DNA of 64,000 nucleotides from Thermoplasmata archaeon (GCA_022750055.1 JAKIWL010000001.1:124001-188000), one strand, 5' to 3'; counted from the first letter of the stretch, positions 15,015 to 55,388 are shown. The notes: generated from the sequence alone by a model not told the origin. Made by a program: numbers and translations.

Positions 15015-16344
15015 CGTGAAGGCCGATCCCGAGCCTCCGGAGCGGGAGATGGCGGCCACCGTACGGGAGATCCGGGCCTCGGTCCAGCGGCACTCCACCC
15101 GGTTCGAAAAGGCGATCCCGCTGATCGCTTCGGAGAACCTCCTCTCCCCGTACGCGAAGGAGCTCCTGATCAGCGACTTCCACTCCCGCTATGCTGAAGG
15201 TCTGCCCGGCGAGCGGTATTACGAAGGGAACGAGGAGGTCGACCGCGTCGAGCGGACCTGCCTCGAACTGGCACGACGCCTCTTCCGTTGTTCGTTCGCC
15301 GACGTGCGACCGATCTCGGGTACGGTCGCGAACCTCGCCGTCCTCAAGGCCCTAGCCGAACCGGGGGACCCGGTGGGGACCGCCCGCCTCGCCGACGGCG
15401 CCCACATCTCCAGCGCATCATTCGGTGCGTTCGGCCTGCGCGGCGTGAAGCCCGTCTACTACGCCTGGGACGAGGAGCGGATGACCCTCGACGTCCCGAA
15501 GACCCGTGCGATCCTGAGGGAGGCACGCCCGAAGCTCTGCCTCTTCGGCCTGTCGCTGTTCCTCTTCCCGATCCCGATCGAGGAGCTTCGCCCGACCCTG
15601 GAGGAGATCGGCGCCCACGGTTGGTACGATGCGGCCCACGTACTCGGGCTCATCGCGGGGGGGGAGTTCCAGGACCCATTGCATGAAGGATGCGAGGTCA
15701 TCTCGGCGTCCACGCACAAGACCCTCCCCGGGCCCCAGCACGGCCTCCTCCTCGGCGAGACCCGGGATCCGGACGTGGAGCGGCGCCTCCGGTCGGCCGC
15801 GTTTCCCGGCGTGACGAGCAACCACCACCTGCATACGATGGCGGCGCTCGCGGTCTCCCTGGCCGAGCACATCGCCTTCGGCCGGGACTACGCCCGTCAG
15901 GTCGTGGCGAACGCCCGGGCCCTGGGCCAGGCGCTCTACGAGCGCGGGTTCGACGTACTCGCTCCCGGGCTCGGGTTCACCCGCTCCCACACCATCGCGG
16001 TTCGGGTCGTACGGGAGGGCGGCGGCGAGGCCGTAGCGCGCTCCCTCGCCGAGGCGGGGATCATCACGAACAAGAACCTCCTTCCAGGGGATTCAAGCCC
16101 GAAGCGCCCGGGAGGGATCCGGATCGGCACTCCCGAGGTCACCCGGGTCGGCATGCGGGAGCCCGAGATGGTCCGGATCGCCGAACTCCTCGACGCCCTC
16201 CTGCACAAGGGCCGGCCGCCCGCCGAGGTCCGAGCGGACGGCGAGCGTTTGAAAGCCGACCACACGGCCCTGCGGTTCTGCTTCGGAGCTGGCGAAGCGG
16301 CGTACCGGTTCTACGACCTAGTAGGACGGGACCCGGGGTCATAG
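15015..16344 (+). CDS. glyA: Serine hydroxymethyltransferase
   Basis: KAIPLIASENLLSPYAKELLISDFHSRYAEGLPGERYYEGNEEVDRVE...ASTHKTLPGPQHGLLLGE. Start GTG 15015 or ATG 15049. Confidence 0.93.
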
Positions 16345-19187
16345 CCGTCGGAAGGTTCGTCGGAGCCCGTCGGCCCCTCGTCGGATCGGGTCGACTCGAG
16401 TCGCTGACGCTCCAGGGCCGCGTCGAGCGCCATGGCATCGACCTCGACCCGAAGCGGGGGCGCGGGGGCGGCAGCGGGCAGTCGGACGAACATCGGCCGG
16501 CCCTCGGGGCCGATCGAGGGTTTCAGGATCCCTTCCGAGACGAGCGATCCCACCCATTCGGCGAGCTCCGCCGCGTCCGGGGGCGGGCCGGTCCATCCGC
16601 CCGCGATATGGTCGAGGTCCACCGCTCGCTCGAGCGGCACCCGTTCGAGGACATGGGCGCGGCCCTCTGCGAGCCGTTTGAGACCGTCCTCGACGGCCGA
16701 ATCGCTGTCGGGGTCCTGGTTCTCGGCCGAGGCGGCGCGCCGACGGCGCGCGATCACCGCAGCCCCCACGACCGCGGCCATCCCGAGACCGAGAACGGCG
16801 GCATAGGCGAACTGACCGAGCGGAGCGTCGGCCAGGGCCGGCACTGCGATCGGAGACAGCAGCGACTGGTTCGACTCGCTCAGCACGTAGACCGTCCCTG
16901 CGCCGCTTCCCCCCGCCGAATAGTTGACCCACACGACGGAGCCGGTACCCGAGGGACGTATCGTCGAATGGAGGTCGGTCACGGTGGCGCCGAAGACCGA
17001 GCGGACGAGGACCCACCCGTCGGTGACCGGGTTCCCGAAGCGATCCCGGATCTCGTAGAGGGTCGAATTCTCCCGATCGCCCGGTCGGGCTACATCGATG
17101 CGGCTGAGGTGTTCGTCGGCAACGTACGGCCCCACCTGGATCCGCATGGGGGACGGACCCTGGACGCTGCCGGCGGCGTTGAAGGAGAGATTGAAGATCC
17201 CGACCGCGCGGTCGGTGAAGGTGAGGTTCAGGAAGCCGTACGTCCACGCAGACCCCAGGACCCCGAAGATCCCGCCTGCCTCCTGGACCGACGTCGAACC
17301 GCTCGCGTTCACCCAGACCCCTGTATAGTCGGCCAACCTCGGGAGGATGCTGAACGAACCGTTGTAACCCGGGACGGCCTCTTGGAGGGCGTCGACCGCC
17401 TCGAACGAGAGGCGGATCGGGGTTCCGGCCGCTGCCGTTGCGTTCGGCGGCTCGTTCAGAAGGATCCGGGTCGCGTTCGTCGAGACGACGAAGACCCGGA
17501 CACTCGCCGAGAAACGCGTCCCGAGGGCGTCAACGATCGTCAGGTTGAGGAGCGAGTTGACCGGGACGGTCGAAGCATGAAAGGAGACCCCGACCGGGCC
17601 GTCGCTCGAGAGACCGCCCCCGCCCACGGTCCGGGTGGGAGCCGTGGTGTTCCACCAGTATGAGATCGGCAGGGCCCCTCCCCGGACCTCCGCGGTGGCC
17701 GTCACGACACCACCCACATCGACCTCGGATTGGCTGAGGTTGATGGTCCCTAGGCCTGGGCGAGAGGAGATAGTCACCGGTAGCGACATCGTGTAGTTCG
17801 TTCCTCCGGAGTCGGCGACGTAGATGCGTGCCTGATATCGTCCGGTTTGCGGGTAGGTGATGGAGAACTTCCACGGGGGGGCGGCCGTCGCGTTGCAGAC
17901 CGTGGCCCCGATCCCGTCCGAGAAGCAGGCGGGGCCGTAGGGGGCGGTTCCGCTTCCGCCGTTTACGCCGACGGTGAAGAGGATTGGCACGCCCGCGTAC
18001 TGGAGGCCTGGGTCGGGGCCGACCGTTACGCCGAGCCCGCGGGAGACGGTTATCGGCGCGAACGTGTAGTTCGCGCTCGAGAACGGGTTGGCGAGGGTCG
18101 CGAACGGCTGGGCCGAGCCCCCTGCCGAGTAGGCGTAGATCACCGAGCAGTCGAATTGGCGCAAGCCCCCTGCGATCGAATGGTTCAAGCAAGCGGCGCG
18201 GACCTGCGCCGCTCCGAGGCCGGGGCCGAGCGTAGCCCAGTACGGGTACCCATCGGCTCCTGTCCCGGTCCAGGAGAACGTCGCGTCCACGCCCGTATCG
18301 ACCGAGGTCGGGCTCGCCGATCCGGAGGTGATCAGGGTCGACGCAGCCGTGAGGAGCAGCGAGACGGGCGGGGCGTGGAACGTCAACCCTCCGTAGGATC
18401 CGTTCACCCAAACTTCGACCGTCGCCACGTTGCTGGTCGAGACCGCCTCGACGGGGAACGTCGGGGCGCCGTTGCCTGCCAGCGACCGCCAACCGACTCC
18501 CGTCAAGGACCAGGCGAACGACAGGTTCGCCGGACTCGGCGTGCCCAACCCCGAGAGCCCCTTCGCCGAAACCACCGTCGGCGCGTTCACGCTCACGGTC
18601 AGGAAGCCGTTCGGTGAGATCGACGCGTTCTCCAGGGCGATTACCCGCGTCAGCGTGAACGTCCCGTTCGAGGTCGTCTCGTTTTCGAAGAATCCCGCGG
18701 GCAGCGCACCGCTCCCCAACGAAAGCGACGCCGGCCCGTACGGGCCGGAATAGTTCCAGCATCCGTACGGCTTGCTGCAGAACGGACCGCTCACGGAAGC
18801 GGTGATCGAGAACGAGCCCGTTGGCCCGGTCAACCCGTCGGCCAGGGTCGAGACGCACAGGTACTGGCTCGCTCCCCCGCCCGACGGGTGGAAGGTCTGC
18901 GTGTATCGGTACGAGAGGACGACGGATTGGTTCGCGAGCGGCGGCGCCGACGCACCGCCCCCGGCGTCCGCGACCCGACCGAGGTACCCCGAGCTCACGG
19001 CCGGGCCCGCGCAGGGACCGGTGCCGGAGGAACGGAGGAGGAAGCCCCGAGGGACTGCGTGGGCCGACGGGCTCGTCAGTGAAAGAGTTCCCATCGGGAG
19101 GCCGATGGCTAGGAGCGCCCCGACGAGGAGAATCGCGCCGATGAGCCGCGGTTCGAAACCTCGGGCCCGTCGATGGTAACCTCGCAT
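16311..19187 (-). CDS. Large surface protein: signal anchor, Ig/PKD-like extracellular repeats, TM, cytoplasmic winged-helix-like tail
   Basis: N-terminal hydrophobic signal; many NxS/T sequons and beta-rich repeats (SGSASPTSVDTGVDATFSWTGTGADG; LSQSEVDVGGVVTATAEVRGGALPISYWWNTTAP); TM FAYAAVLGLGMAAVVGAAVIA RRRR, then DGLKRLAEGRAHVLERV...LAEWVGSLVSEGILKPS. Confidence 0.75.
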   Translation of the reverse strand: MRGYHRRARGFEPRLIGAILLVGALLAIGLPMGTLSLTSPSAHAVPRGFLLRSSGTGPCAGPAVSSGYLGRVADAGGGASAPPLANQSVVLSYRYTQTFHPSGGGASQYLCVSTLADGLTGPTGSFSITASVSGPFCSKPYGCWNYSGPYGPASLSLGSGALPAGFFENETTSNGTFTLTRVIALENASISPNGFLTVSVNAPTVVSAKGLSGLGTPSPANLSFAWSLTGVGWRSLAGNGAPTFPVEAVSTSNVATVEVWVNGSYGGLTFHAPPVSLLLTAASTLITSGSASPTSVDTGVDATFSWTGTGADGYPYWATLGPGLGAAQVRAACLNHSIAGGLRQFDCSVIYAYSAGGSAQPFATLANPFSSANYTFAPITVSRGLGVTVGPDPGLQYAGVPILFTVGVNGGSGTAPYGPACFSDGIGATVCNATAAPPWKFSITYPQTGRYQARIYVADSGGTNYTMSLPVTISSRPGLGTINLSQSEVDVGGVVTATAEVRGGALPISYWWNTTAPTRTVGGGGLSSDGPVGVSFHASTVPVNSLLNLTIVDALGTRFSASVRVFVVSTNATRILLNEPPNATAAAGTPIRLSFEAVDALQEAVPGYNGSFSILPRLADYTGVWVNASGSTSVQEAGGIFGVLGSAWTYGFLNLTFTDRAVGIFNLSFNAAGSVQGPSPMRIQVGPYVADEHLSRIDVARPGDRENSTLYEIRDRFGNPVTDGWVLVRSVFGATVTDLHSTIRPSGTGSVVWVNYSAGGSGAGTVYVLSESNQSLLSPIAVPALADAPLGQFAYAAVLGLGMAAVVGAAVIARRRRAASAENQDPDSDSAVEDGLKRLAEGRAHVLERVPLERAVDLDHIAGGWTGPPPDAAELAEWVGSLVSEGILKPSIGPEGRPMFVRLPAAAPAPPLRVEVDAMALDAALERQRLESTRSDEGPTGSDEPSDGYDPGSRPTRS

Positions 19188-19886: not shown

Positions 19887-22526
19887 TCACGAGTGCACCG
19901 GGTCTTGCCGATTTCCATCGCACCCGCTTGCTCTCGACAGGGTCCATACCTGGGCTTCGGGAGGGCGCACCCGTTCCCGTCGAAGGACCTCACTGAGCCG
20001 CCGAGCCCGTCGGGCGTCCGAGACCAGGAACAGGACCGCCGCCCCTGCTTGACGAGCCTTGGCGAGGCCGCGCCGGATCCGTTCCGGCCGTTCTGCCCCG
20101 GAGACCTCCGCCTCGACGTGGACGTCCCGCCCCCCAAACGCCCTCCAGAGCCAGCGCCCGGAACGTTCGCTCGCCATCCGAAACAGCTCCTCGGGGTTCA
20201 ACCCACCGGTCCGCGCCGGCAGCTGGCGCACGAGGCCGTCCGGGAGCCGCGTGTCGAACCGCCCCTGCCGGACGATCTCGAGCCACTCCCCGCGTCGGGC
20301 GAAGATTCGCACGCCCTCGACGAGGAGGGCACGGTGTTCGTCACTTTCCCGGATCGCCCCGCTACGGAGTCCGATGCCCAGCCGTCGGGTCCCAGCCACG
20401 GTCAACTTTACCCCGCCCCCCTCCTCCTCGGTCCAGCCCCGTTGTGCGAGGGCGGGAAGTCGGGAGGCGAGCTCGACCCGATCGATCCCGGGAAGGATCC
20501 GTGCCGCCGCATCGACGATCTCCGAGGCCGTGGGGGGAGGACCCCGCGCTTCCAGCCCGAACATCCCGAGGAGGAGCGCCTCCTCCGCCGATCCTCGCCC
20601 CCCGTTCGCCCATTCCGCCGACTCCCGGACCCCATATTCGAGCGCCGCCGTTTGGCACTGCGACTCCCAGGCGGACCCGCCATCGTCGAGGGATGGCGGG
20701 GTGTGGAGGAGTCCTCGCGGGCCGCCCGACAGCGCGATGTCGACGAGGGCCACGCCCGGTGGGAGCGCCGGAAGAACCCGTTCCGCCGCGTCGCGGTCGA
20801 GTCCCGCCCATCGACCGGCCGCGCTCGCGCCCGAACGTGGAATGTGGAACACGAGATGAGTTCCCGCCGCTCCCTCGGCCGCGGCGAGCGCCTCCGGCGC
20901 GAGACGGGCCGCGTACTGCGTGGCCACCGCCGCGCCGAACCCGAACTTCCGCCCTTCGCACAGGATCTCCGAAAGCAGCGAGGGGGAGATCGAATGGGCC
21001 TCGTCGAAAACGGCAAGGACCCGCAGCCCGGCCCGCCGTCTCGGGGTAGCCGCGAGGGCGAGGTAGGTCCGGCTCGCGAGGAGCGTCGCGGCGAACCGGC
21101 TCGCGGCGGGACCGAGCTCGGCGCTCGGGATCCGGAAGATGACCGAGCCTCCCGCGTCGAGGAGTCCCGCGACATCGAGGGGGCGCTCCGTGGCGTCCAG
21201 GAGTCGAAGGAGCTTGGGGTGGAGCGCGACCCGTTGGACCCGCGCGATGGCCGGTTGCAGGTACTCCGGGTTGCGGCGCAACAGCCCCGGGAGCTCCTCG
21301 AGGAATCGCGCGGCGACTCGGCGGCGCGTGGTGGCGCGGGCGGCCTCGCGGCGCATTGGGTCGGTGAGGAGCTCATAGAGGTCGGCGAACCCACCCCGTT
21401 CCTCTTCGACGAGCCGCACGAAGACGTCGAAGACCTGCTCCAGGCGATTCCCCCAGTAGACCTCCGAACCATCGTGGGAGAGGTGGCGGAGGCTCGCGAC
21501 CAAGTGGGCGGCCTCGCGCTCCCGGTCGGCGGCACCCTCCGCAGAGAACAGCGCCACGCCGGGGATCTCCTCCGTCGGGCGGGCGGCGTCGACCGCCACG
21601 ACCCGGGCGCGGGCGGTCGCATCGAGGCCCGCCGCGATGGCGGGGCCCAGGTCTCCGTGCACATCGAGCACGACCGTCGGCCGTCCCTTGCGGATCCGCT
21701 CCCGAGCGAGGTGGGCCAGGAAGGAGCTCTTCCCAGACCCGGACGCCCCGAGGATCGCGAGATGGCGCTCGAGCACGCGGTCGTCGAACGGAGCCATCGG
21801 GCGGAGGGGGCGGACCGCCCGGGCCGCAGCGGCCGGGGTGAGCTCGAACGGGGATCCTCGATGGAACCCGCGGAGGGAACCGGAGACCCAGGCCCGCCGA
21901 CGGCGCCAGGAGGCTGTCAGGGAGGCCAGCCCGACCGCACTCGGGCCCCCCTGAAGTCGCCCGACGATCGGGGCTGACGACTGGACGAGACAGCCTCGGA
22001 GGGCCTTCCCTTCCCCCGACGCGCGCAGTCGGACCCGAACGGCAAGACGGGGGCGACCCGTCGAGAACCAGTGCCATTGGACTGCTCCGATGCCGCCGTA
22101 GGACGGGAGCGCCGTTTCCGGCTCATTCGGGTACCACGCCGCCATGCCCTCCAGCGGGACCGGTTCGTCGGGGTCGACCCGTCGATACTCGCTCGCGTCT
22201 CGGCGGTCGGGCAAACCCACTGGGTAAACGACCCCGAATCGGGTCCGGCCGATCGGGATCGGGGGAACCGCCGGGATCGGCCCGAACCGTTCGAGAGCCC
22301 CGGGCAATCCCCAGGCCGCTCGCTCCACGGCCGGCTCCACGTCGGTCGATCCCGGGAAGACCAGCGGTTCGGAGTCCTCCGTGCACTCGAGCAGGATCGC
22401 GTGCCCGGCGGGGTACGTGGACAGTCCTTCCGCCAACCGACGCAGGAAGGGAAGGTCCCACGAGGGTCCGTCGGGCCGGAACCGGTAGGCCCGGTCCGGG
22501 CGGGTTCGGTGTCGGGGAGCGTTCAT
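19887..22526 (-). CDS. HerA/VirD4-like P-loop ATPase with C-terminal wHTH and putative restriction-fold nuclease domain
   Basis: HLAILGASGSGKSSFLAHLARERI Walker A; LRVLAVFDEAHSIS Walker B; AAVATQYAARL sensor region. C-terminus EWLEIVRQGRFDTRLPDGLVRQLP...DVHVEAEVSGAERPERIRRGLAKARQAGAAVLFLVSD resembles PD-(D/E)XK-type domains. Confidence 0.8.
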   Translation of the reverse strand: MNAPRHRTRPDRAYRFRPDGPSWDLPFLRRLAEGLSTYPAGHAILLECTEDSEPLVFPGSTDVEPAVERAAWGLPGALERFGPIPAVPPIPIGRTRFGVVYPVGLPDRRDASEYRRVDPDEPVPLEGMAAWYPNEPETALPSYGGIGAVQWHWFSTGRPRLAVRVRLRASGEGKALRGCLVQSSAPIVGRLQGGPSAVGLASLTASWRRRRAWVSGSLRGFHRGSPFELTPAAAARAVRPLRPMAPFDDRVLERHLAILGASGSGKSSFLAHLARERIRKGRPTVVLDVHGDLGPAIAAGLDATARARVVAVDAARPTEEIPGVALFSAEGAADREREAAHLVASLRHLSHDGSEVYWGNRLEQVFDVFVRLVEEERGGFADLYELLTDPMRREAARATTRRRVAARFLEELPGLLRRNPEYLQPAIARVQRVALHPKLLRLLDATERPLDVAGLLDAGGSVIFRIPSAELGPAASRFAATLLASRTYLALAATPRRRAGLRVLAVFDEAHSISPSLLSEILCEGRKFGFGAAVATQYAARLAPEALAAAEGAAGTHLVFHIPRSGASAAGRWAGLDRDAAERVLPALPPGVALVDIALSGGPRGLLHTPPSLDDGGSAWESQCQTAALEYGVRESAEWANGGRGSAEEALLLGMFGLEARGPPPTASEIVDAAARILPGIDRVELASRLPALAQRGWTEEEGGGVKLTVAGTRRLGIGLRSGAIRESDEHRALLVEGVRIFARRGEWLEIVRQGRFDTRLPDGLVRQLPARTGGLNPEELFRMASERSGRWLWRAFGGRDVHVEAEVSGAERPERIRRGLAKARQAGAAVLFLVSDARRARRLSEVLRRERVRPPEAQVWTLSRASGCDGNRQDPVHS

Positions 22527-23083: not shown

Positions 23084-23725
23084 CGTCTCCGCAGGTGGGG
23101 CGGCGACCGTCCGGAAGGCCCCTCCTCCGGGCGCGGTGCCTATCGGCTCGACGGTTTGGCTCTCGGGACCGAACGGTCCAGGGCTCGGTGTTCCACCGGG
23201 CGCCGAGTTCGAGTTCCGGGGCTCAGGGTCGTGCGGGAACTGGGAATCGTCGCAGCTCGCCCGAGGGGTGTCATCGGACACGCTCGTTGAAGGTGCGTGG
23301 GGGTTCCCGAGGTTCCGGCCATGTGGGTTCGGCCGATGGAGGCGCCCCGGGAGGTCAATCCCATCCGAGGCGATGAATGATGAACGGTGCGACCTGCGAG
23401 AGAACCGTCGGTCGTTAATGCGTCATGAACTGGCTTGGCGTTCGCAGTTCTGTAAGAAGACGTTAGGAGAGGGTAGGAAGGGACCCCCGCACGCCCGAGA
23501 CGCGGTGCCGTCTCCTTGGGGATCTTGGCGGTCCCTTCCGGGGTGGTTGCGAGAGAACCAGGGCGATACGGGGTATAGGAACTGCCTCTGGGGCCCGTGA
23601 AACGGTCTCGTCGGCGCGGTGTTTCAAGCCATGTCGGGCTTTGTGATTTTATTCCGTCGGCCGTGACAGCATTCGGGAAAACGGAGCGAGCGCCGTGAGA
23701 AAAATCACGACGCTCCCGGGTCGCG

Positions 23726-47840: not shown

Positions 47841-48647
47841 ATGGTCACCGTACGGACGCCCCCCGGTCGCGTCCGGGTCGCGCTCGGAGACGCGCGGGAT
47901 CTTCCCGGCGTACCGTCCGAGTCGGTCGCGCTCGTGGTGACGAGCCCCCCGTATCCGATGCTCCCGCAGTGGGACGAGCTGTTCCGGCGATGGGGCGCGA
48001 CCGGATTTGAAGCGATGCATGCACGGCTTGCGGAAGCGTGGGCCGCCTGCCGGAGAGTCCTCGTACCGGGCGGGATCCTCGCCGTCAACATCGGCGACGC
48101 CCTTCGGACGCTCGAGGGGGAGTTCCGGCTGTGGCCCAATCACGTTCGCGTGGCCCTCGACTGCGAGGCCCTGGGGCTGCGGCCCCTGCCCTACATCCTG
48201 TGGAAGAAGCCGACGAACCGCCCGAACGCGTTCCTCGGCTCGGGCTTCGATCCCCCGAACGCCTACGTGACGCTCGACTGCGAGTTCATCCTCCTCTTCA
48301 GAAAAGGCTCCCCCCGGCGGTTTCCCCCGAAGGACCCTCGTCGGGTCGAGAGCCGGTACTCCAGGTCGGAACGGGACACGTGGTTCTCGCAGGTGTGGAC
48401 CGACATCCGAGGGGTTCGCCAGGGCCTCGACGGCGCTCGGACCGGGGCCTTCCCTCCGGCGATCCCCGAGCGCCTGATCCGGATGTTCAGCGTCGTCGGC
48501 GACACCGTCCTCGACCCCTTTGCCGGGACGGGGACCACCTTGTGGGAGGCCTCGCGGTTTGGGCGCGACTCGGTCGGGGTCGAGATCGACCCGGTGCTGT
48601 ACGAGCGCCTAGTCGATCGGGCTAGGCGCTCAGGGGTCGAGCCCTAG
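47841..48647 (+). CDS. DNA methyltransferase, N4-cytosine/N6-adenine class
   Basis: LVVTSPPYPMLPQWDELF...FRKGSPRRFPPKD...GDTVLDPFAGTGTTLWEASRFGRDSVGVEID: TSPPY and DPFAGTGT motifs. Confidence 0.9.
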   Translation: MVTVRTPPGRVRVALGDARDLPGVPSESVALVVTSPPYPMLPQWDELFRRWGATGFEAMHARLAEAWAACRRVLVPGGILAVNIGDALRTLEGEFRLWPNHVRVALDCEALGLRPLPYILWKKPTNRPNAFLGSGFDPPNAYVTLDCEFILLFRKGSPRRFPPKDPRRVESRYSRSERDTWFSQVWTDIRGVRQGLDGARTGAFPPAIPERLIRMFSVVGDTVLDPFAGTGTTLWEASRFGRDSVGVEIDPVLYERLVDRARRSGVEP

Positions 48648-49186
48648 CGGGGCGCGGTCCGGCGCGCTTCGAGCTCCTCGTAGACTGCGGTGGAGAGGTA
48701 GCTGAGCGCGTGGTCGCTTAGCCGGTCGAGGTGAAGGAGGAGGTAGTGCAGGTAGATCCGCTCCGGTCGGGTAGACGGTCCGGGCGGGTGGGGTCGTCGG
48801 CCGGGTTCGGGAGCCTCCGGGCCGTATCGCATGGCCGCGAGGGTCTCGGGATGGTGTTCTCGTTCCGACCCGTGGAGGGCCCGGCCGGTCGCCCGGGTGA
48901 GGGGGGGATAGACCCGGGCGACCGGGTCGAGCTCGCCGACCGCCTCGTCCGATGCCGCATCGGGGTCTGGGTCCCCCGCCGTGGGTCGAATGGGCGCGGA
49001 GCGGGACCCGGAGCGGGGCGGGAGCGACTCGACGACCGTCGAACGATATGGGGCGAGGTGGGGGGCGGAGTCGGGTCCTTGGAAATCCGTGATCGGGCGG
49101 CCGCCGATCTCCTCGGCGATCTTTCGGAAGCTCCACGTGCCCCGACGCCTTGGCGGGACCTCGGCGGTAGCGAGCGCTTCCTCCAC
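48644..49186 (-). CDS. Uncharacterised protein, last gene of the T4SS-like operon
   Basis: GTG-start ORF; N-term TWSFRKIAEEIGGRPITDFQGPDSAPHLAPYR; C-term helical ERIYLHYLLLHLDRLSDHALSYLSTAVYEELEARR. Confidence 0.6.
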   Translation of the reverse strand: MEEALATAEVPPRRRGTWSFRKIAEEIGGRPITDFQGPDSAPHLAPYRSTVVESLPPRSGSRSAPIRPTAGDPDPDAASDEAVGELDPVARVYPPLTRATGRALHGSEREHHPETLAAMRYGPEAPEPGRRPHPPGPSTRPERIYLHYLLLHLDRLSDHALSYLSTAVYEELEARRTAPR

Positions 49187-49250
49187 GGCCCGGAGGGCGG
49201 AGGTCGCATGAGATAAACTCGCGCCTCGACTGGTCCGTCTCCTCGACGGG

Positions 49251-50903
49251 TCAGTGGCCTTTCGGCCCGGGCCCCGCGGTCCCGCTCAGCAGCTCGTATT
49301 CCGGGGTCGAGGCCACGATCGCGATCGGAAGGTGAGAAGGACCGAACCGAAGGAGCCCTTCCGAGTATCCGGCCTCCTTCGGAAGTCGCGCCCTCGGGAG
49401 CCATTCCGCCTCCGACTCGGTCAGCGAAAAGAATCGGCGCGCGGCCTCGGAGACCTCCGGGAGGCGGAGCAGGAAGGAGGCGCGCAGGTTCCGCAAGAGG
49501 GATCGACCGCTCTCGGTCCGAAGAAAATCGTCCGGATTCTGGCTCGCGATCAGGAGGCCGGCGTGGAAGTGCCGCACGTGGCGTACGAGTCGGTCGAGGA
49601 ACTCCGCGGTCGCGGGAACTCGGGCGAGCAGGTGGGCCTCGTCGACGAGGACCAACTTCGGTCGGTCCGAACCCTTGAGGCGGCCGTACACCGCGTCCAG
49701 CAGAAACGCGAGGTAGAACGGGAGCTGGCCTTCGGCCGCTCCGGACAGGTCGAAGACGAGGGGGGTCCGCGCCCAATCGACCGTCGTGGGTCCATCGAGG
49801 TGACGAAGGGACCCGGTCCGGAACACCTCCAAGAGACCCGACAGACGGCTCGGGACCACCGGGAGTCGTTCCACCTCCCGAAGCAGGTCGGAGAGGGTCG
49901 GACGAAGCTGGGTCGCTCCGTACAGACGGGCCACCGCGGTGTCCAGTGCGGCCCCCTCCTCGTCGTTCAGGCTCGGGAAGAGCGCCCGCAAGACCGCGGT
50001 GATGCGCGCGGCCGGGCCCGGCCCGTCCGACGCTGCCTCCCCCGCATCCAGCGGGTTGATCCGCGGTCCGCCCGGCACGGCCGGTCGGACGACCTGGCCC
50101 CCGGTCGCTTCGGCGAGCCGAGCGAACTCGCCGAGTGGATCGACCAGGTACAGCTCCACATCGGGCTGGGTCCAGCGACTCCGCAGGGCCCACAGGGAGG
50201 CGGCGAACGACTTGCCGGAGCCCGTCATCCCGAAGATTCCCCAGGAGTGGCTTGCGTGACGCCACCGATCGAGAACGACCGGGGCCGCATCGTCGAGAAG
50301 CAGGCCCACCAGCACTCCATGCGGTTCGACGACCGCCTCGTCGACGAACGGAAAGAACGCGCCGAGTCCGTCGGTCGACAGCGTGTGCCAGTATCCGGGC
50401 GGGCGGCGTTCCGTTCCCAGCAGGTCCGGAGGACCCAGCGTCTCCCCCGCCTCGAATCGGGGGACGCGCGTCCGGAAGCCGAGGGAGGCGAGGCGGCGGA
50501 GCAGTTCGGAGCGCCGTTGCTCAGCGCGTGTCATCGAGGGGCCCTGGGCATGCAGCGCGAGGCCGACCCGGAACAGGTCTTCGGCGCCGGAGGCCACGCG
50601 CCGCCCGAGCTCCCGGGCGCTCTCGGCTTCGAGTTCGAGGTCGGCCGTGCGCGCCGACCCGCTCGGTCGGCCCTCCGAGAGCTCCGCCTCGGCGACCGAC
50701 CCCGCTCCTTCCAGGAGGTCGAGGGAACGGGGGCGGGGGATCCGATGGAATTGCATCCGAAGGCCGTACCCGCTCGGCCCCGCTAGGATGCGACCGAGAA
50801 AACCGAACGGGACCTCCTTCGGGAGCTCCGGAATGACGACGGGAAGGGAGAACCCAAGGGGCCCGACGACCCAGCTTTCCCCTTCGACTCGCCGCCGGGT
50901 CAC
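49251..50903 (-). CDS. VirB4/TraC/CedB-like conjugation ATPase
   Basis: YWHTLSTDGLGAFFPFVDEAVVEPHGVLVGLLLDDAAPVVLDRWRHASHSWGIFGMTGSGKSFAASLWAL (VirB4-type linker + Walker A); PKLVLVDEAHLLARVPATAEFLDRLVRHVRHFHAGLLIASQNPDDFL. Confidence 0.88.
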   Translation of the reverse strand: MTRRRVEGESWVVGPLGFSLPVVIPELPKEVPFGFLGRILAGPSGYGLRMQFHRIPRPRSLDLLEGAGSVAEAELSEGRPSGSARTADLELEAESARELGRRVASGAEDLFRVGLALHAQGPSMTRAEQRRSELLRRLASLGFRTRVPRFEAGETLGPPDLLGTERRPPGYWHTLSTDGLGAFFPFVDEAVVEPHGVLVGLLLDDAAPVVLDRWRHASHSWGIFGMTGSGKSFAASLWALRSRWTQPDVELYLVDPLGEFARLAEATGGQVVRPAVPGGPRINPLDAGEAASDGPGPAARITAVLRALFPSLNDEEGAALDTAVARLYGATQLRPTLSDLLREVERLPVVPSRLSGLLEVFRTGSLRHLDGPTTVDWARTPLVFDLSGAAEGQLPFYLAFLLDAVYGRLKGSDRPKLVLVDEAHLLARVPATAEFLDRLVRHVRHFHAGLLIASQNPDDFLRTESGRSLLRNLRASFLLRLPEVSEAARRFFSLTESEAEWLPRARLPKEAGYSEGLLRFGPSHLPIAIVASTPEYELLSGTAGPGPKGH

Positions 50904-51250
50904 GATCCCTCCCCGAACGCCGGCACGCGCCGCCCGACCCAGCCCACGAATCCTGCGGTACCGCCTAGGACCACCCCACGGGCGATCGCCGCCGGCCCGA
51001 TCGCCGACACGAAGAACGCCCAACCGGCGATGGAGGCAACGAGCCCTAGGAGGAGCAGGGGGCGACGACCGACCTCACCGGGTGGGTTCGGTCCGATGAG
51101 CCAACCCACGAGAGCGAGGGCCGCCAGGGCGGCGGCCATCCCATCGAAGAAGGGCCATCCGACCGAAGCGATCCCCGCGAGCGCCGAGAGGGTCCCCGCG
51201 GTCGCGACCGGATCGATGGCGAACGACTCGAATCGGGGAGGCCATCTCAT
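50900..51250 (-). CDS. Small polytopic membrane protein of the T4SS-like operon
   Basis: MRWPPRFESFAIDPVATAGTLSALAGIASVGWPFFDGMAAALAALALVGWLIG...RRPLLLLGLVASIAGWAFFVSAIG...; several TM segments; ATGA overlaps both sides. Confidence 0.7.
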   Translation of the reverse strand: MRWPPRFESFAIDPVATAGTLSALAGIASVGWPFFDGMAAALAALALVGWLIGPNPPGEVGRRPLLLLGLVASIAGWAFFVSAIGPAAIARGVVLGGTAGFVGWVGRRVPAFGEGS

Positions 51251-52023
51251 GGGGGAAGCCGTCCGGTCCAACCGAGGGTCTCCGCGGCGCTCGACAGGTT
51301 GGGGCCGCGGAGCCGGTCGACGGGGACGCCCAGACCGGCGAGTCCGGATTGGAACGCATCCGTCCGCTCGTTCAACCGGCGGAGCGAGACCGGATCCGAC
51401 CCGGATTCGAACAGGAGGACGCAGACGCGGCGGAGTCGGCGGCGGCGGAGCAGGAGCTTGGCCATCTCCTGGTAGCCCGTCCGGGCGGCGGCCTCGGCCG
51501 GCCCGTAGCTCGACCTCTTCGGAAGGTGGAACGGCGAGCCCGGGATCGGTGCGCTGCCCACGTCGAGATGGACCCCGGATTCGACGGTCCGCAATAGCTC
51601 CCGATACCGGTCGAACAGCGCGCGCGCGTCACTGGGAGGAAGGAACCGGATCGGGACCCCGCCCGCTTCGAGGATCGTCGCGGTGACCGGACCCGGTAGC
51701 CTGAGATACGTCTCCGAGCCGCTCGTCGCCACCGGGCTACTCCTCCCATTCTCGGGGTGACGGCGTCGCCATCTCCATCGGAGGTAATCACCGGCGCGAT
51801 CGTCGAGACCCTTGCCCTCCGGTCGGACGACCGACAGCACAAACCCGAGCGCCAGGATCGGAAGCCAGGCGAGCGCCCCTCCGATCGGGACCACGATCGC
51901 GCCCGCCGCGGCGTAGGCGGCGAACCGCATCGCGTCGCGGGCGGTGGGGAACGGTCCGAGTCGCATCCGGCGCTCCAGGGGTCTCGGAAGAGGGATGGGC
52001 GCGAGGCCGTGGTCCTCCGCCAC
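51247..52023 (-). CDS. VirB3/PrgI-like TM hairpin fused to a soluble VirB4 N-domain-like region
   Basis: TM pair AMRFAAYAAAGAIVVPIGGALAWLPILALGFVLSVVRPEGKGLDD followed by a soluble domain ending VLLFESGSDPVSLRRLNERTDAFQSGLAGLGVPVDRL. Confidence 0.65.
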   Translation of the reverse strand: MAEDHGLAPIPLPRPLERRMRLGPFPTARDAMRFAAYAAAGAIVVPIGGALAWLPILALGFVLSVVRPEGKGLDDRAGDYLRWRWRRRHPENGRSSPVATSGSETYLRLPGPVTATILEAGGVPIRFLPPSDARALFDRYRELLRTVESGVHLDVGSAPIPGSPFHLPKRSSYGPAEAAARTGYQEMAKLLLRRRRLRRVCVLLFESGSDPVSLRRLNERTDAFQSGLAGLGVPVDRLRGPNLSSAAETLGWTGRLPP

Positions 52024-52024
52024 C

Positions 52025-53206
52025 CTACATCAACTCCCGGATCGTCGGCGGGAACCGTCGGTAGATCGGGTCGTCGAACTCCGACGGCTCCTCCCTCGAG
52101 CTCCCAGCGGACCGCGCGCGGGCCCCCGAACCACCGGCCGAGGGTCGCATGTGCCGGACGAGATGTCCCGCCCCCCGCCCCAGCAATTCTCCGAACGCGA
52201 GCGGGAGCGCAGCGGGCAGTGGGGCCTTCCCTCCGGCGCTGAGCGCGCTCGAAGCCCCCGATACTGCCCTGCCCCCGGAGGTCCGGGAGCCGCTGATCTC
52301 GCCGAGGGGGCGTGCGTAGCTGGTGGCTCCGAGCGAGGCGACCGCGAGTCCGCGTTGCATGCCCCCCGAGAGCAGTCCGGAAGCGGACGGGAGACCGAGC
52401 TGAGACAGCTGGGTCCCGGCGATCGATAGGAGCGAGGGCGCGCCGAGAGCGAGCGTCAGAAAGGCCACGACGAGCAGAATCGACGGGGAGCCGACCGCGA
52501 GCTCGAGCGGGATCACGAGCAGGCAGGGAAGGAATGCGGCCTCGATGAACCACAACCAGGCCCGCTTCATCACCGAACGCAGCGGAGGGAGCGCCCCTAC
52601 GAGCGTGAGGACCGGGAGCACGACGATCAGGAACGCAAGCAAGGCGTCGCGCAGCGCGACCGCGACGGTGAGGAGAAGGACCAGGGAAAAGAGGACGAAC
52701 GAGACCACGAAGGCGAGCGCCCCGTTGTCCCAGCTGAACCGAGCCCCGGCGATCCCGGTCAGGTTCTGCCAGTGCTGCCACGCACCCCCATCGAAGCTGG
52801 CGACGAGCGGATAGACCGAACCCGCGAGATCGAGGATCGCCCCCGCGACCGGCACCGTGAGGTTCGCGAGCACCACGTAGATCACCAGTCTCGGAAGGAC
52901 GCCCTCCAGGCGAACGAGCTCTCGACCGAGGAAGGACCGCGAGAGGTACAGCAGGCCTAGCGCGATCGCGACGAGGACGACCGCCGGGTCGACCAGGTGG
53001 ACCACGAGATAGTTCGAGAAATCGACTGGTCCCGAGAAGAACGAAGCACCCACGCCGGGGAACGGTGGGAACAGGGCGCCCGGGGAGAGTTCGGGGACGA
53101 GCAGGCCCTCGTACGTCGGCCCGGTGATCGCCTGCAGGATCGCCGTCAGGCCGCTGAAGAGCGCGAAGAGGATCGACTGGATGACGGGGTCGAGAGGGCC
53201 CGACAT
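52025..53206 (-). CDS. Polytopic VirB6/TrbL/CedA-like membrane channel component
   Basis: Multiple long TM segments (VVLVAIALGLLYLSRSFLGRELVRLEGVLPRLVIYVVLANLTVPVAGAILDLAG; ALAFVVSFVLFSLVLLLTVAVALRDALLAFLIVVLPVLTLVGALPPLRSVMKRAWLWFIEAAFLPCLLVIPLELAVG) and a disordered C-terminal tail. Confidence 0.75.
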   Translation of the reverse strand: MSGPLDPVIQSILFALFSGLTAILQAITGPTYEGLLVPELSPGALFPPFPGVGASFFSGPVDFSNYLVVHLVDPAVVLVAIALGLLYLSRSFLGRELVRLEGVLPRLVIYVVLANLTVPVAGAILDLAGSVYPLVASFDGGAWQHWQNLTGIAGARFSWDNGALAFVVSFVLFSLVLLLTVAVALRDALLAFLIVVLPVLTLVGALPPLRSVMKRAWLWFIEAAFLPCLLVIPLELAVGSPSILLVVAFLTLALGAPSLLSIAGTQLSQLGLPSASGLLSGGMQRGLAVASLGATSYARPLGEISGSRTSGGRAVSGASSALSAGGKAPLPAALPLAFGELLGRGAGHLVRHMRPSAGGSGARARSAGSSREEPSEFDDPIYRRFPPTIRELM

Positions 53207-53216
53207 CGCCTCCCCT

Positions 53217-53609
53217 TCAGGGGGCGCCGAGGATCCATTGGGCGAGCCCCCAGACGATCCCGCTCAGCGCCGCGGCAAAGATGACCGTCCCGACGAGAGC
53301 ATCGCGCGCCCGCTCCTTCGCTTGCATCTTCTTCGAGACCTCGTTGGAGAACCAGCTCAACGCGACACGCGACCACGCGATGGCGAGGATCGCCCCGCCG
53401 GCGGCACCGAGGAGCGTTACGATGCGGCCGAGGGCGGCCGAGAAGTTGCCCACCACACTCCCGTTCCCGGACGGCACGAGCTCGTGGCTCGATGGAGAGG
53501 GCGGGCCGATCGCCCCTGGTCCGGGGCCCGGCCCCCACGCTCCGAGGGTAACCAACAGGCCGGCGAGTAGGAGCGGTGAGGAGAACGCGCCGAGGGCCCG
53601 CCCGATCAT
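53217..53609 (-). CDS. VirB2/TrbC-like pilin candidate
   Basis: Signal peptide, short G/P/S-rich segment, then TM-KKMQAKERARDALVGT-TM hairpin (IVTLLGAAGGAILAIAWSRVALSWFSNEVSKKMQAKERARDALVGTVIFAAALSGIVWGLAQWILGAP). Confidence 0.65.
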   Translation of the reverse strand: MIGRALGAFSSPLLLAGLLVTLGAWGPGPGPGAIGPPSPSSHELVPSGNGSVVGNFSAALGRIVTLLGAAGGAILAIAWSRVALSWFSNEVSKKMQAKERARDALVGTVIFAAALSGIVWGLAQWILGAP

Positions 53610-55324
53610 GGATCGTCCTTCGATAGGGCGGGCTCCGTCGGGCCGGGGCCGACCCATCGGATGAGCTCAGAGCCGTCCTCGCTTCGTTCGACCCTCACTC
53701 GCCCGCTCGCCTGGAGAGAAGCCAGCGCCGAATCGACCTCTCCGCCCGACAGTCCCTCCTCCTCTGCGAGCACCCGGAGCACGGAGGGCTCGGTACCGTC
53801 CGAATCCCGTAGGAGCCGCCGGAGGGTCTCCTCCGCCGGTGCGACGCTCGGGGCCAGGGGTCCGTTCCGAGGACGACGACGACGCCGTTCCCAGAGGAAC
53901 GCGCCGGACGCCGCGACGATCAGGACCAGCAGTCCGAGGTACCCGAGCGCCCCTTGCGAGGGAGGGGGGGATGCCTTGGGGACCGGAGCCGCTGTGGGTG
54001 GCGGCCCGAGCGGCGGGTCCGGCGGGGAAGGACTCGCCGAGAAAGCGGCGACGACGACCGTCGAGACGAGCTCCGTCGTCCCCGACAAGGAGTCCTCGAC
54101 GCGCAAGTGCACGGACAAGAACCCCGGGGCCGCCGGGTGCGCCACCCAGAGGAACGGCCCGGACGCATCGACCGATCCCGCCGATCGTTCCTCATCGGAG
54201 AGGACCATCGAGTACGAGTACGGGGCCATCCCTCCGACGAGATCCACGCTCAGATTGAGTGGGGCACCGGCCTGGGGAGAGCGAGTCTCGACCGCGAGGG
54301 CCAGCTCGAGCGGCGGGTAAACGCGCAGGGAGGTGTCCGCGCTGAGGAGGGTCCCGGCGGCATCCGAGAGGTCGAAGCGTACCGTGGCGTTGCCGACCCC
54401 GGCGAAGCGTCCGGACCAGTTGATCGGGGCCGACGTTCCGACCGTCCCGGTGGCTCCAGTGACGTTGAAGTCCGGAAGGCTCGCGGCCGCCGCCCAGGAA
54501 AAGGGGGGCGTCCCTCCCACCACGAGGCCCGTGACGACCGCGCGGGCCCCGGCGTCCACCGCCGGCTGAGCGGCCGTCAGCAGGACCTGGGGCCGCGGAT
54601 GAACGACCGCGACGATCCCGTCGACCGTCGCGGAGACGGAGAGCCGGTCGGTCACCGAGGCCTGGATCCAGGCGTAGCCCGGACTCGCTTGCGTGGTCGC
54701 GACCTCGAGTTGACCGGCTGCTTGGAGGACGCTCGAGCGGGCGGACCCATCGGGAAGCGGGGTCCACGTCACCGCGAAGGGGGGGAAGCTCCCGTCCACC
54801 CGGATCGACAGCGGGATCGGCAGGCCGACGTCGGTCGCTCCCACGAAGGAGGCCAAGGCGATCGAAGGGGCGCTCCCGATCCCCACCGACGCACTGGCCT
54901 GGGCCGAGTTCCCCAGTTCGTCGCGGACCGACACGCTCGCCCAGACCGAGCCGGAGCCCGGCGCCAGGAGCGTGATCGATCGATTCGTGCTCACGAGACC
55001 AAGGGAATCGTTCCACAGGTATCGATAGGCCCAGCCGAACCCTCCTTGCGCGGTCGCCTCCAGGGTGAAGGGGGCGTTGGGATCGACCGAAGGACCCGGC
55101 AGGGAGATCTGGACCGTCAGGCCGAACCCTCCGAGGAGGGCGGGCTCCGTTCGCGCGAGGGCGACGGGCCGATCGCCCCTCGCTCCCGCGACGGACGGTC
55201 CACCGGGACCCGGGATCATGGGCACGATCGGGAACCCAGCGAGCAGGGCGAGGAAGAGGGTCCCCAGGGTCCGGCGCCGCCAAGATTCTACCGTCGTCCG
55301 AGAGCGCGTTCGCACAGCAACCAC
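53606..55324 (-). CDS. Surface Ig-like receptor with TM and cytoplasmic winged helix, first gene of the T4SS-like operon
   Basis: Signal-like N-terminus, repeated Ig-like modules (ATAQGGFGWAYRYLWNDS; VVGGTPPFSWAAAAS; LVGGMAPYSYSMVLSD), TM LGYLGLLVLIVAASGAFLW ERRRRR, then APAEETLRRLLRDSDGTEPSVLRVLAEEEGLSGGEVDSALASLQASGRVRVERSEDG wHTH. Confidence 0.75.
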   Translation of the reverse strand: MVAVRTRSRTTVESWRRRTLGTLFLALLAGFPIVPMIPGPGGPSVAGARGDRPVALARTEPALLGGFGLTVQISLPGPSVDPNAPFTLEATAQGGFGWAYRYLWNDSLGLVSTNRSITLLAPGSGSVWASVSVRDELGNSAQASASVGIGSAPSIALASFVGATDVGLPIPLSIRVDGSFPPFAVTWTPLPDGSARSSVLQAAGQLEVATTQASPGYAWIQASVTDRLSVSATVDGIVAVVHPRPQVLLTAAQPAVDAGARAVVTGLVVGGTPPFSWAAAASLPDFNVTGATGTVGTSAPINWSGRFAGVGNATVRFDLSDAAGTLLSADTSLRVYPPLELALAVETRSPQAGAPLNLSVDLVGGMAPYSYSMVLSDEERSAGSVDASGPFLWVAHPAAPGFLSVHLRVEDSLSGTTELVSTVVVAAFSASPSPPDPPLGPPPTAAPVPKASPPPSQGALGYLGLLVLIVAASGAFLWERRRRRPRNGPLAPSVAPAEETLRRLLRDSDGTEPSVLRVLAEEEGLSGGEVDSALASLQASGRVRVERSEDGSELIRWVGPGPTEPALSKDDP

Positions 55325-55388
55325 CGTGCGCTGAGAGACGGGGTCGGGTATTTCGGACGAATCGGACCGGCGAACGATGAACGGTGGT

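Follow-up and report, generated by a model that had tools for sequence, protein, structure and literature searches.

The window analysed here is a stretch of 64,000 nucleotides from a Thermoplasmata archaeon. It contains seven consecutive genes on the minus strand, extending from 55324 to 48644, which an initial annotation had described as a conjugation-like operon with ATGA-type overlaps. All seven open reading frames were confirmed, with gene starts refined by codon-based gene calling and by the overlaps, three of which are of four bases (P0001/P0002, P0004/P0005 and P0005/P0006). The gene order is kept in about 20 loci of the window's genus and close genera, and the order of the T4SS core across six families of the class, so that the operon is not a chance arrangement; the comparison across Thermoplasmatota genomes suggested in the initial annotation thus supports it. 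The GC content is even over the whole window, and there is therefore no sign of a recent insertion.

The first gene, P0001 (53606-55324, minus strand, start at 55324 or 55315), reads as a surface protein with a signal peptide, an Ig-like ectodomain, a C-terminal transmembrane helix and a cytoplasmic winged-helix domain, the Pfam support for P0001 itself being weak. The same layout is found in 26 loci of the window's family (f1), in proteins of 500-1811 residues: a repeat region outside the cell is followed by a single C-terminal transmembrane helix and a short cytoplasmic domain that resembles a winged helix. Family f15 has a gene with this layout, containing Big_7, Big_13 and PKD domains, upstream of its pilin; it shows no detectable sequence similarity to P0001. 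Other Ig-repeat proteins are encoded elsewhere in the window's genome, so the layout is not proven to be unique to the operon. We propose that P0001 is an adhesin or contact receptor.

P0002 (53217-53609, minus strand, ATG start, 130 residues) has a signal peptide, a transmembrane segment, a positively charged loop and a second transmembrane segment. The pilin family A1 matches PF18895 (T4SS_pilin) in 18 of its 31 members (best 1.7e-8), with a TrbC/VirB2 match at 3e-4. The evidence is at the level of the family, the window member alone reaching only 0.007, and at this level P0002 is the VirB2-like pilin of a T4SS. Members of f15 also encode secreted proteins with a terminal pilin domain (L070:13126-17278 and L073:12762-14531).

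Profile searches with the families of the pilin, VirB6 and P0004 gave no solved structure, and folding was therefore needed. For P0003 (52025-53206, minus strand, start 53206), the five best Foldseek matches of the AF2 model among 350,542 PDB chains are all R388 VirB6 (TrwI), with a probability of 1.00 for four; the helical core of the model has a pLDDT mostly above 90. P0003 alone has no Pfam match, and 6 of its 53 homologues match PF04610 (TrbL; best 1.1e-6). The family profile also recognises the protein encoded upstream of PrgI in a plasmid from an actinobacterium (6.5e-16). Model and profiles together identify P0003 as the VirB6/TrbL channel protein of a T4SS.

The following gene, P0004 (51247-52023, minus strand, start 52023), has homologues that align to positions 35-274 of NF045975, while the partner VirB4 covers positions 275-829. 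Its family profile matches the 349-residue PrgI protein encoded on an Embleya plasmid along the whole length, both parts included (1.6e-15); on an Enterococcus plasmid it matches two proteins separately, the short PrgI and VirB4 at its N-terminus. Among the 50 matches listed for its AF2 model (pLDDT 85), R388 VirB4 (7o41_B) has the highest probability, one of the highest TM-scores, and an E-value of 0.12 that places it 47th. Since the Foldseek E-values are weak, the identity of P0004 rests on the sequence profiles, according to which it is a PrgI/VirB3 transmembrane hairpin joined to the first third of VirB4, TrsD-like, and provides the VirB3/PrgI component of a T4SS. VirB4 is therefore split. 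The ATPase part is P0006 (49251-50903, minus strand, GTG start, 550 residues), with Walker A GMTGSGKS and Walker B LVLVDEAHLL; profile searches match it to NF045971 (4.2e-32) and to the VirB4 structure 4ag5 (7.7e-15), and it is by these matches the VirB4 ATPase of a T4SS. Most of the f19 genomes examined have one longer VirB4 of 630-700 residues in place of the two genes, with the ATPase part starting near residue 240-320. The N-terminus of this longer protein is clearly recognised by the P0004 profile only in L137 (1.4e-11); in the other f19 genomes, length and gene order suggest that P0004 and VirB4 are fused.

Between the two parts of VirB4 lies P0005 (50900-51250, minus strand, ATG start, 116 residues), a small polytopic membrane protein whose position is conserved and whose sequence evolves fast: most f1 and f15 loci have a small membrane ORF, some 100-150 residues long, in the same place. 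The last gene of the operon, P0007 (48644-49186, minus strand, start 49186), is found only in f1. Its N-terminus is of low complexity, its C-terminal part has a conserved helical motif, ERIYLHYLLLHLDRL, and it is a putative adaptor.

Most of the assignments in the initial annotation are upheld by these results: the surface Ig/wHTH protein, the VirB2-like pilin candidate, the VirB6/TrbL-like polytopic protein (through the Foldseek search that it had suggested), the small polytopic protein and the VirB4-type ATPase. Its VirB3/PrgI-like membrane protein with a soluble domain is correct as to VirB3/PrgI, and the soluble part is now defined as the first third of VirB4. The description of the flanking genes as housekeeping does not hold for the gene directly downstream, which is a convergent, solitary DNA methyltransferase of the TSPPY type (47841-48647, plus strand; PF01555, 4.8e-33). 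In 11 f1 loci a homologue is found in this convergent position, and a closed f15 genome has one (28% identity) adjacent to VirB4. The association of the methyltransferase with the T4SS operon is uncertain.

The operon contains no substrate-processing gene. The initial annotation saw no relaxase nearby, and this extends to the whole genome for PF03432 (MobA-type), the only relaxase family searched. VirD4 (PF02534) likewise has no match in the whole genome. A VirD4/HerA-like ATPase with a winged helix is encoded 26 kb from the operon (19887-22526, minus strand), and is a candidate coupling protein. It adjoins VirB4 in three relatives, and a homologue follows VirB4 directly in L080 (f31). Strict co-occurrence of this gene with VirB4 was rejected by a presence/absence test: it is present in some genomes that have no T4SS and missing from some that do. 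Near this gene in the window is a repeat-rich surface protein of 958 residues (16311-19187, minus strand), with a C-terminal transmembrane helix and a cytoplasmic tail, whose layout resembles that of P0001.

A direct-repeat motif, CGTTCAnCGTTC, lies within the 64-nt gap that precedes the operon (55372-55383, minus strand), followed after about 27 nt by a TATA-like AAATACC, and is a putative operator or promoter element. It is exact, and in the same place, in about half of the loci of close relatives, most of the others having a half-site. Over 14 genomes there are 46 sites genome-wide, compared to 2 for a reversed control pattern. Eight of these precede the T4SS operon, eight (in seven genomes) precede the VirD4/HerA-like gene, and two more precede related ATPase genes; the remainder are inside genes, in repeats or before unrelated genes, and the many sites within genes or repeats were not counted as members of a regulon. 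Because the T4SS promoter served to define the motif, independent evidence comes only from the motif's association with the ATPase. In the window, a copy with one mismatch (23375-23386, minus strand) is found 860 bp upstream of the VirD4/HerA-like gene. The sites lie 850-1300 bp upstream of the ATPase gene, which is far for a promoter, and a search between motif and gene found no hidden gene or conserved leader, the leader being poorly conserved. Direct regulation of the ATPase by the motif is for these reasons putative.

The VirB6 profile matches 63 of 390 genomes of the phylum, all within the class Thermoplasmata, and the system occurs in families f1, f11, f15, f19, f27 and f31. In f19, which is Thermoplasmataceae-like, the profile matches 55 of 61 genomes, and 32 of the 33 of good quality. 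The system reaches beyond the window's own lineage, into most Thermoplasmataceae-like genomes. Its bearers presumably include cultured species, among them Thermoplasma acidophilum, Ferroplasma acidiphilum and Aciduliprofundum boonei, as well as T. volcanium and Cuniculiplasma divulgatum S5. Within f1 the operon occupies one chromosomal site, the flanking genes (fibrillarin, a 434-residue protein and others) being common to about 18-19 loci. No system was found in the f1 genomes G080, G147, G152, G173 and G254, and some nearly complete genomes of the same genus lack it altogether. In f1 genomes with no T4SS detected (L123-L129, from G290, G147, G287, G152, G173, G254 and G080), the fibrillarin is only about 40% identical to that flanking the window's operon.

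In a VirB4 tree every family forms one clade with full or near-full support, and f1, f15, f27 and f31 group together (90/94). VirB4 proteins of Gram-positive plasmids lie outside this group; they share with it a larger portion of the tree in which support is weak, as it is for the deep relations. The family-wise clades and the shared flanks fit a domesticated chromosomal system rather than a moving element. The module may have descended from a Gram-positive-type (FATA) conjugation system, and would now be inherited vertically within each family.

The initial annotation proposed a system of the Ced/Ted type. The functional analogy stands: Ced (Sulfolobales) and Ted (Thermoproteales) are chromosomal, have no relaxase and combine a VirB2-like pilin, VirB6 and a VirB4-type ATPase, as here (PMC9905601, PMC11868833), and the N-terminal domain of VirB4 is distributed over two proteins both in Ced (CedB/CedD) and here (P0004/P0006). 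Orthology of the ATPase to CedB or CedD does not, since P0006 is far nearer to Gram-positive VirB4 (NF045971, 4e-32) than to CedD (6e-9), and no match to CedB was reported. By sequence, then, Gram-positive (FATA) T4SS are nearer relatives of the operon than Ced is. It also differs from Ced and Ted in having the VirB3/PrgI hairpin (VirB3 has been stated to be absent in archaea) and the P0001 adhesin with its winged helix, and in having no ParA, Rad50 or HerA gene within the operon. A Gram-positive (FATA) counterpart is the Embleya plasmid NZ_CP108778.1, which has the same order of VirB6, PrgI with soluble domain, a small gene and VirB4, and whose three large proteins all match the archaeal family profiles. 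Next to VirB4 the plasmid also carries VirD4, a replication-relaxation protein and an NlpC/P60 hydrolase, all missing from the archaeal operon, which in turn adds the pilin and the Ig protein. The T4SS of Patescibacteria, compared here by described features, is likewise chromosomal and mostly relaxase-less, with FATA-type VirB4, a TrsD-like VirB4 N-terminus and PF18895 pilins; it differs in domain of life, lifestyle and the presence of peptidoglycan hydrolases (PMC12102498).

In 2016, T4SS components were noted in Cuniculiplasma divulgatum, with VirB4, multipass and membrane proteins in one cluster and a VirD4-like ATPase elsewhere (PMC5155288). This is very probably the same system. The accessible part of that report gives annotation only, and does not describe the pilin, the identity of VirB6, the split VirB4, the class-wide distribution or a function. 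The accessible text of open-licence papers and reviews from 2023-2025 on Ced, Ted and plasmid systems does not describe the operon.

It is secure that the operon encodes a membrane machine that derives from a T4SS and is borne on the chromosome, the identities of its subunits being demonstrated by the matches above. T4SS without a relaxase are known to serve DNA import (Ced; ComB), protein secretion or attachment. We consider, with moderate confidence, that the most likely function here is the exchange of DNA. By analogy with homologues, VirB6 would form an inner-membrane pore, on which an ATPase ring of P0004 and P0006 would dock via the VirB3-like hairpin, and the ring would power polymerisation of the VirB2-like pilin into a pilus. 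P0001 would bind a neighbouring cell, and may report contact via its cytoplasmic winged helix. Pilus and pore could thereupon transfer chromosomal DNA in single-stranded form from one cell to another, to be used in homologous recombination. This would proceed as in Ced, Ted or H. pylori ComB, with no relaxase, and the VirD4/HerA-like ATPase that shares the promoter motif would pass DNA to the machine. ComEC was not found in 20 bearing genomes in which controls were detected, so no standard DNA-uptake channel is evident in them. Frequent homologous recombination, documented in Ferroplasma (PMC2704941), likewise speaks for DNA exchange. On the other side stand the missing substrate-processing gene, the loose co-occurrence of the VirD4/HerA-like gene with the T4SS, the nearly complete genomes of the window's genus that have no such system, and the distance and poorly conserved leader between motif and ATPase gene.

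A T4SS that secretes proteins, delivering effectors or mediating attachment on contact as proposed for Patescibacteria, would equally have no relaxase and no certain coupling protein. The features in common with Patescibacteria (the PF18895 pilin, the VirB4 N-terminus on a separate protein and the multiple pilins of f15) and the large, variable Ig-repeat surface protein would also suit it. We nevertheless regard it as unlikely, because neither an effector gene nor a toxin-immunity gene could be recognised alongside the operon, and because near-universal presence in the small genomes of f19 fits gene exchange as a housekeeping function better than a niche weapon. Retention of VirB6 and the full VirB4 architecture in every family, together with the promoter motif common to the operon and the VirD4/HerA-like ATPase, makes it more improbable still that VirB4 and VirB6 assemble only an adhesive or cell-cell pilus that transports neither DNA nor protein, even though pilin, assembly ATPase, pore and adhesin would suffice for a T-pilus-like appendage and several large secreted f15 proteins carry a terminal pilin domain, as expected of tip adhesins.

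The homology to conjugative plasmids raises the question of an integrated conjugative element (ICE) or its remnant. A 2011 survey reports an ICE in Aciduliprofundum boonei (PMC3158045), and the closed f15 genome has a gene of the phage-integrase family (5.5e-8; L070:1551-2144, minus strand) about 7 kb from VirB4. However, the same flanking genes at a fixed site across the family give no indication of mobility, the GC content is even, and the PF03432 relaxase is absent; VirB4 is monophyletic in each family, and the system is near-universal in f19. This explanation is thus highly improbable overall, and for f1 and f19 it is weak given the constant flanks.

DNA exchange, as preferred above, can be taken further: the operon might be an ancestral, vertically inherited, class-wide mating apparatus that exchanges chromosomal DNA without ComEC, under control of a new kind, exerted by an Ig-repeat adhesin whose cytoplasmic winged helix reports contact and by a direct-repeat regulon in which the operon and the VirD4/HerA-like coupling ATPase are turned on jointly. 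This fuller proposal is tentative and, taken as a whole, rather doubtful. Homologous recombination is frequent in Ferroplasma (PMC2704941), which such an apparatus, if real, would account for; a T4SS-derived machine in nearly every Thermoplasmataceae-like genome would give recombination a concrete mechanism. The results extend chromosomal, domesticated conjugation machinery beyond Thermoproteota, with VirB3 and a split VirB4 in archaea. This stripped-down relative of the bacterial DNA-passing machine, carried by these soil archaea and by many relatives in the class, is a good candidate for the means by which they exchange genes.

It is worth adding that some f1 genera (g2, g6) have a second, distinct VirB4 system (L064-L067, L069, L075-L077), with its own VirB6, a pilin-like protein and a coupling-protein-like ATPase of 1000-1150 residues (TraG-D_C). 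In an f27 genome, a TFB (TFIIB) gene directly follows VirB4 (L063:10634-11569, plus strand).
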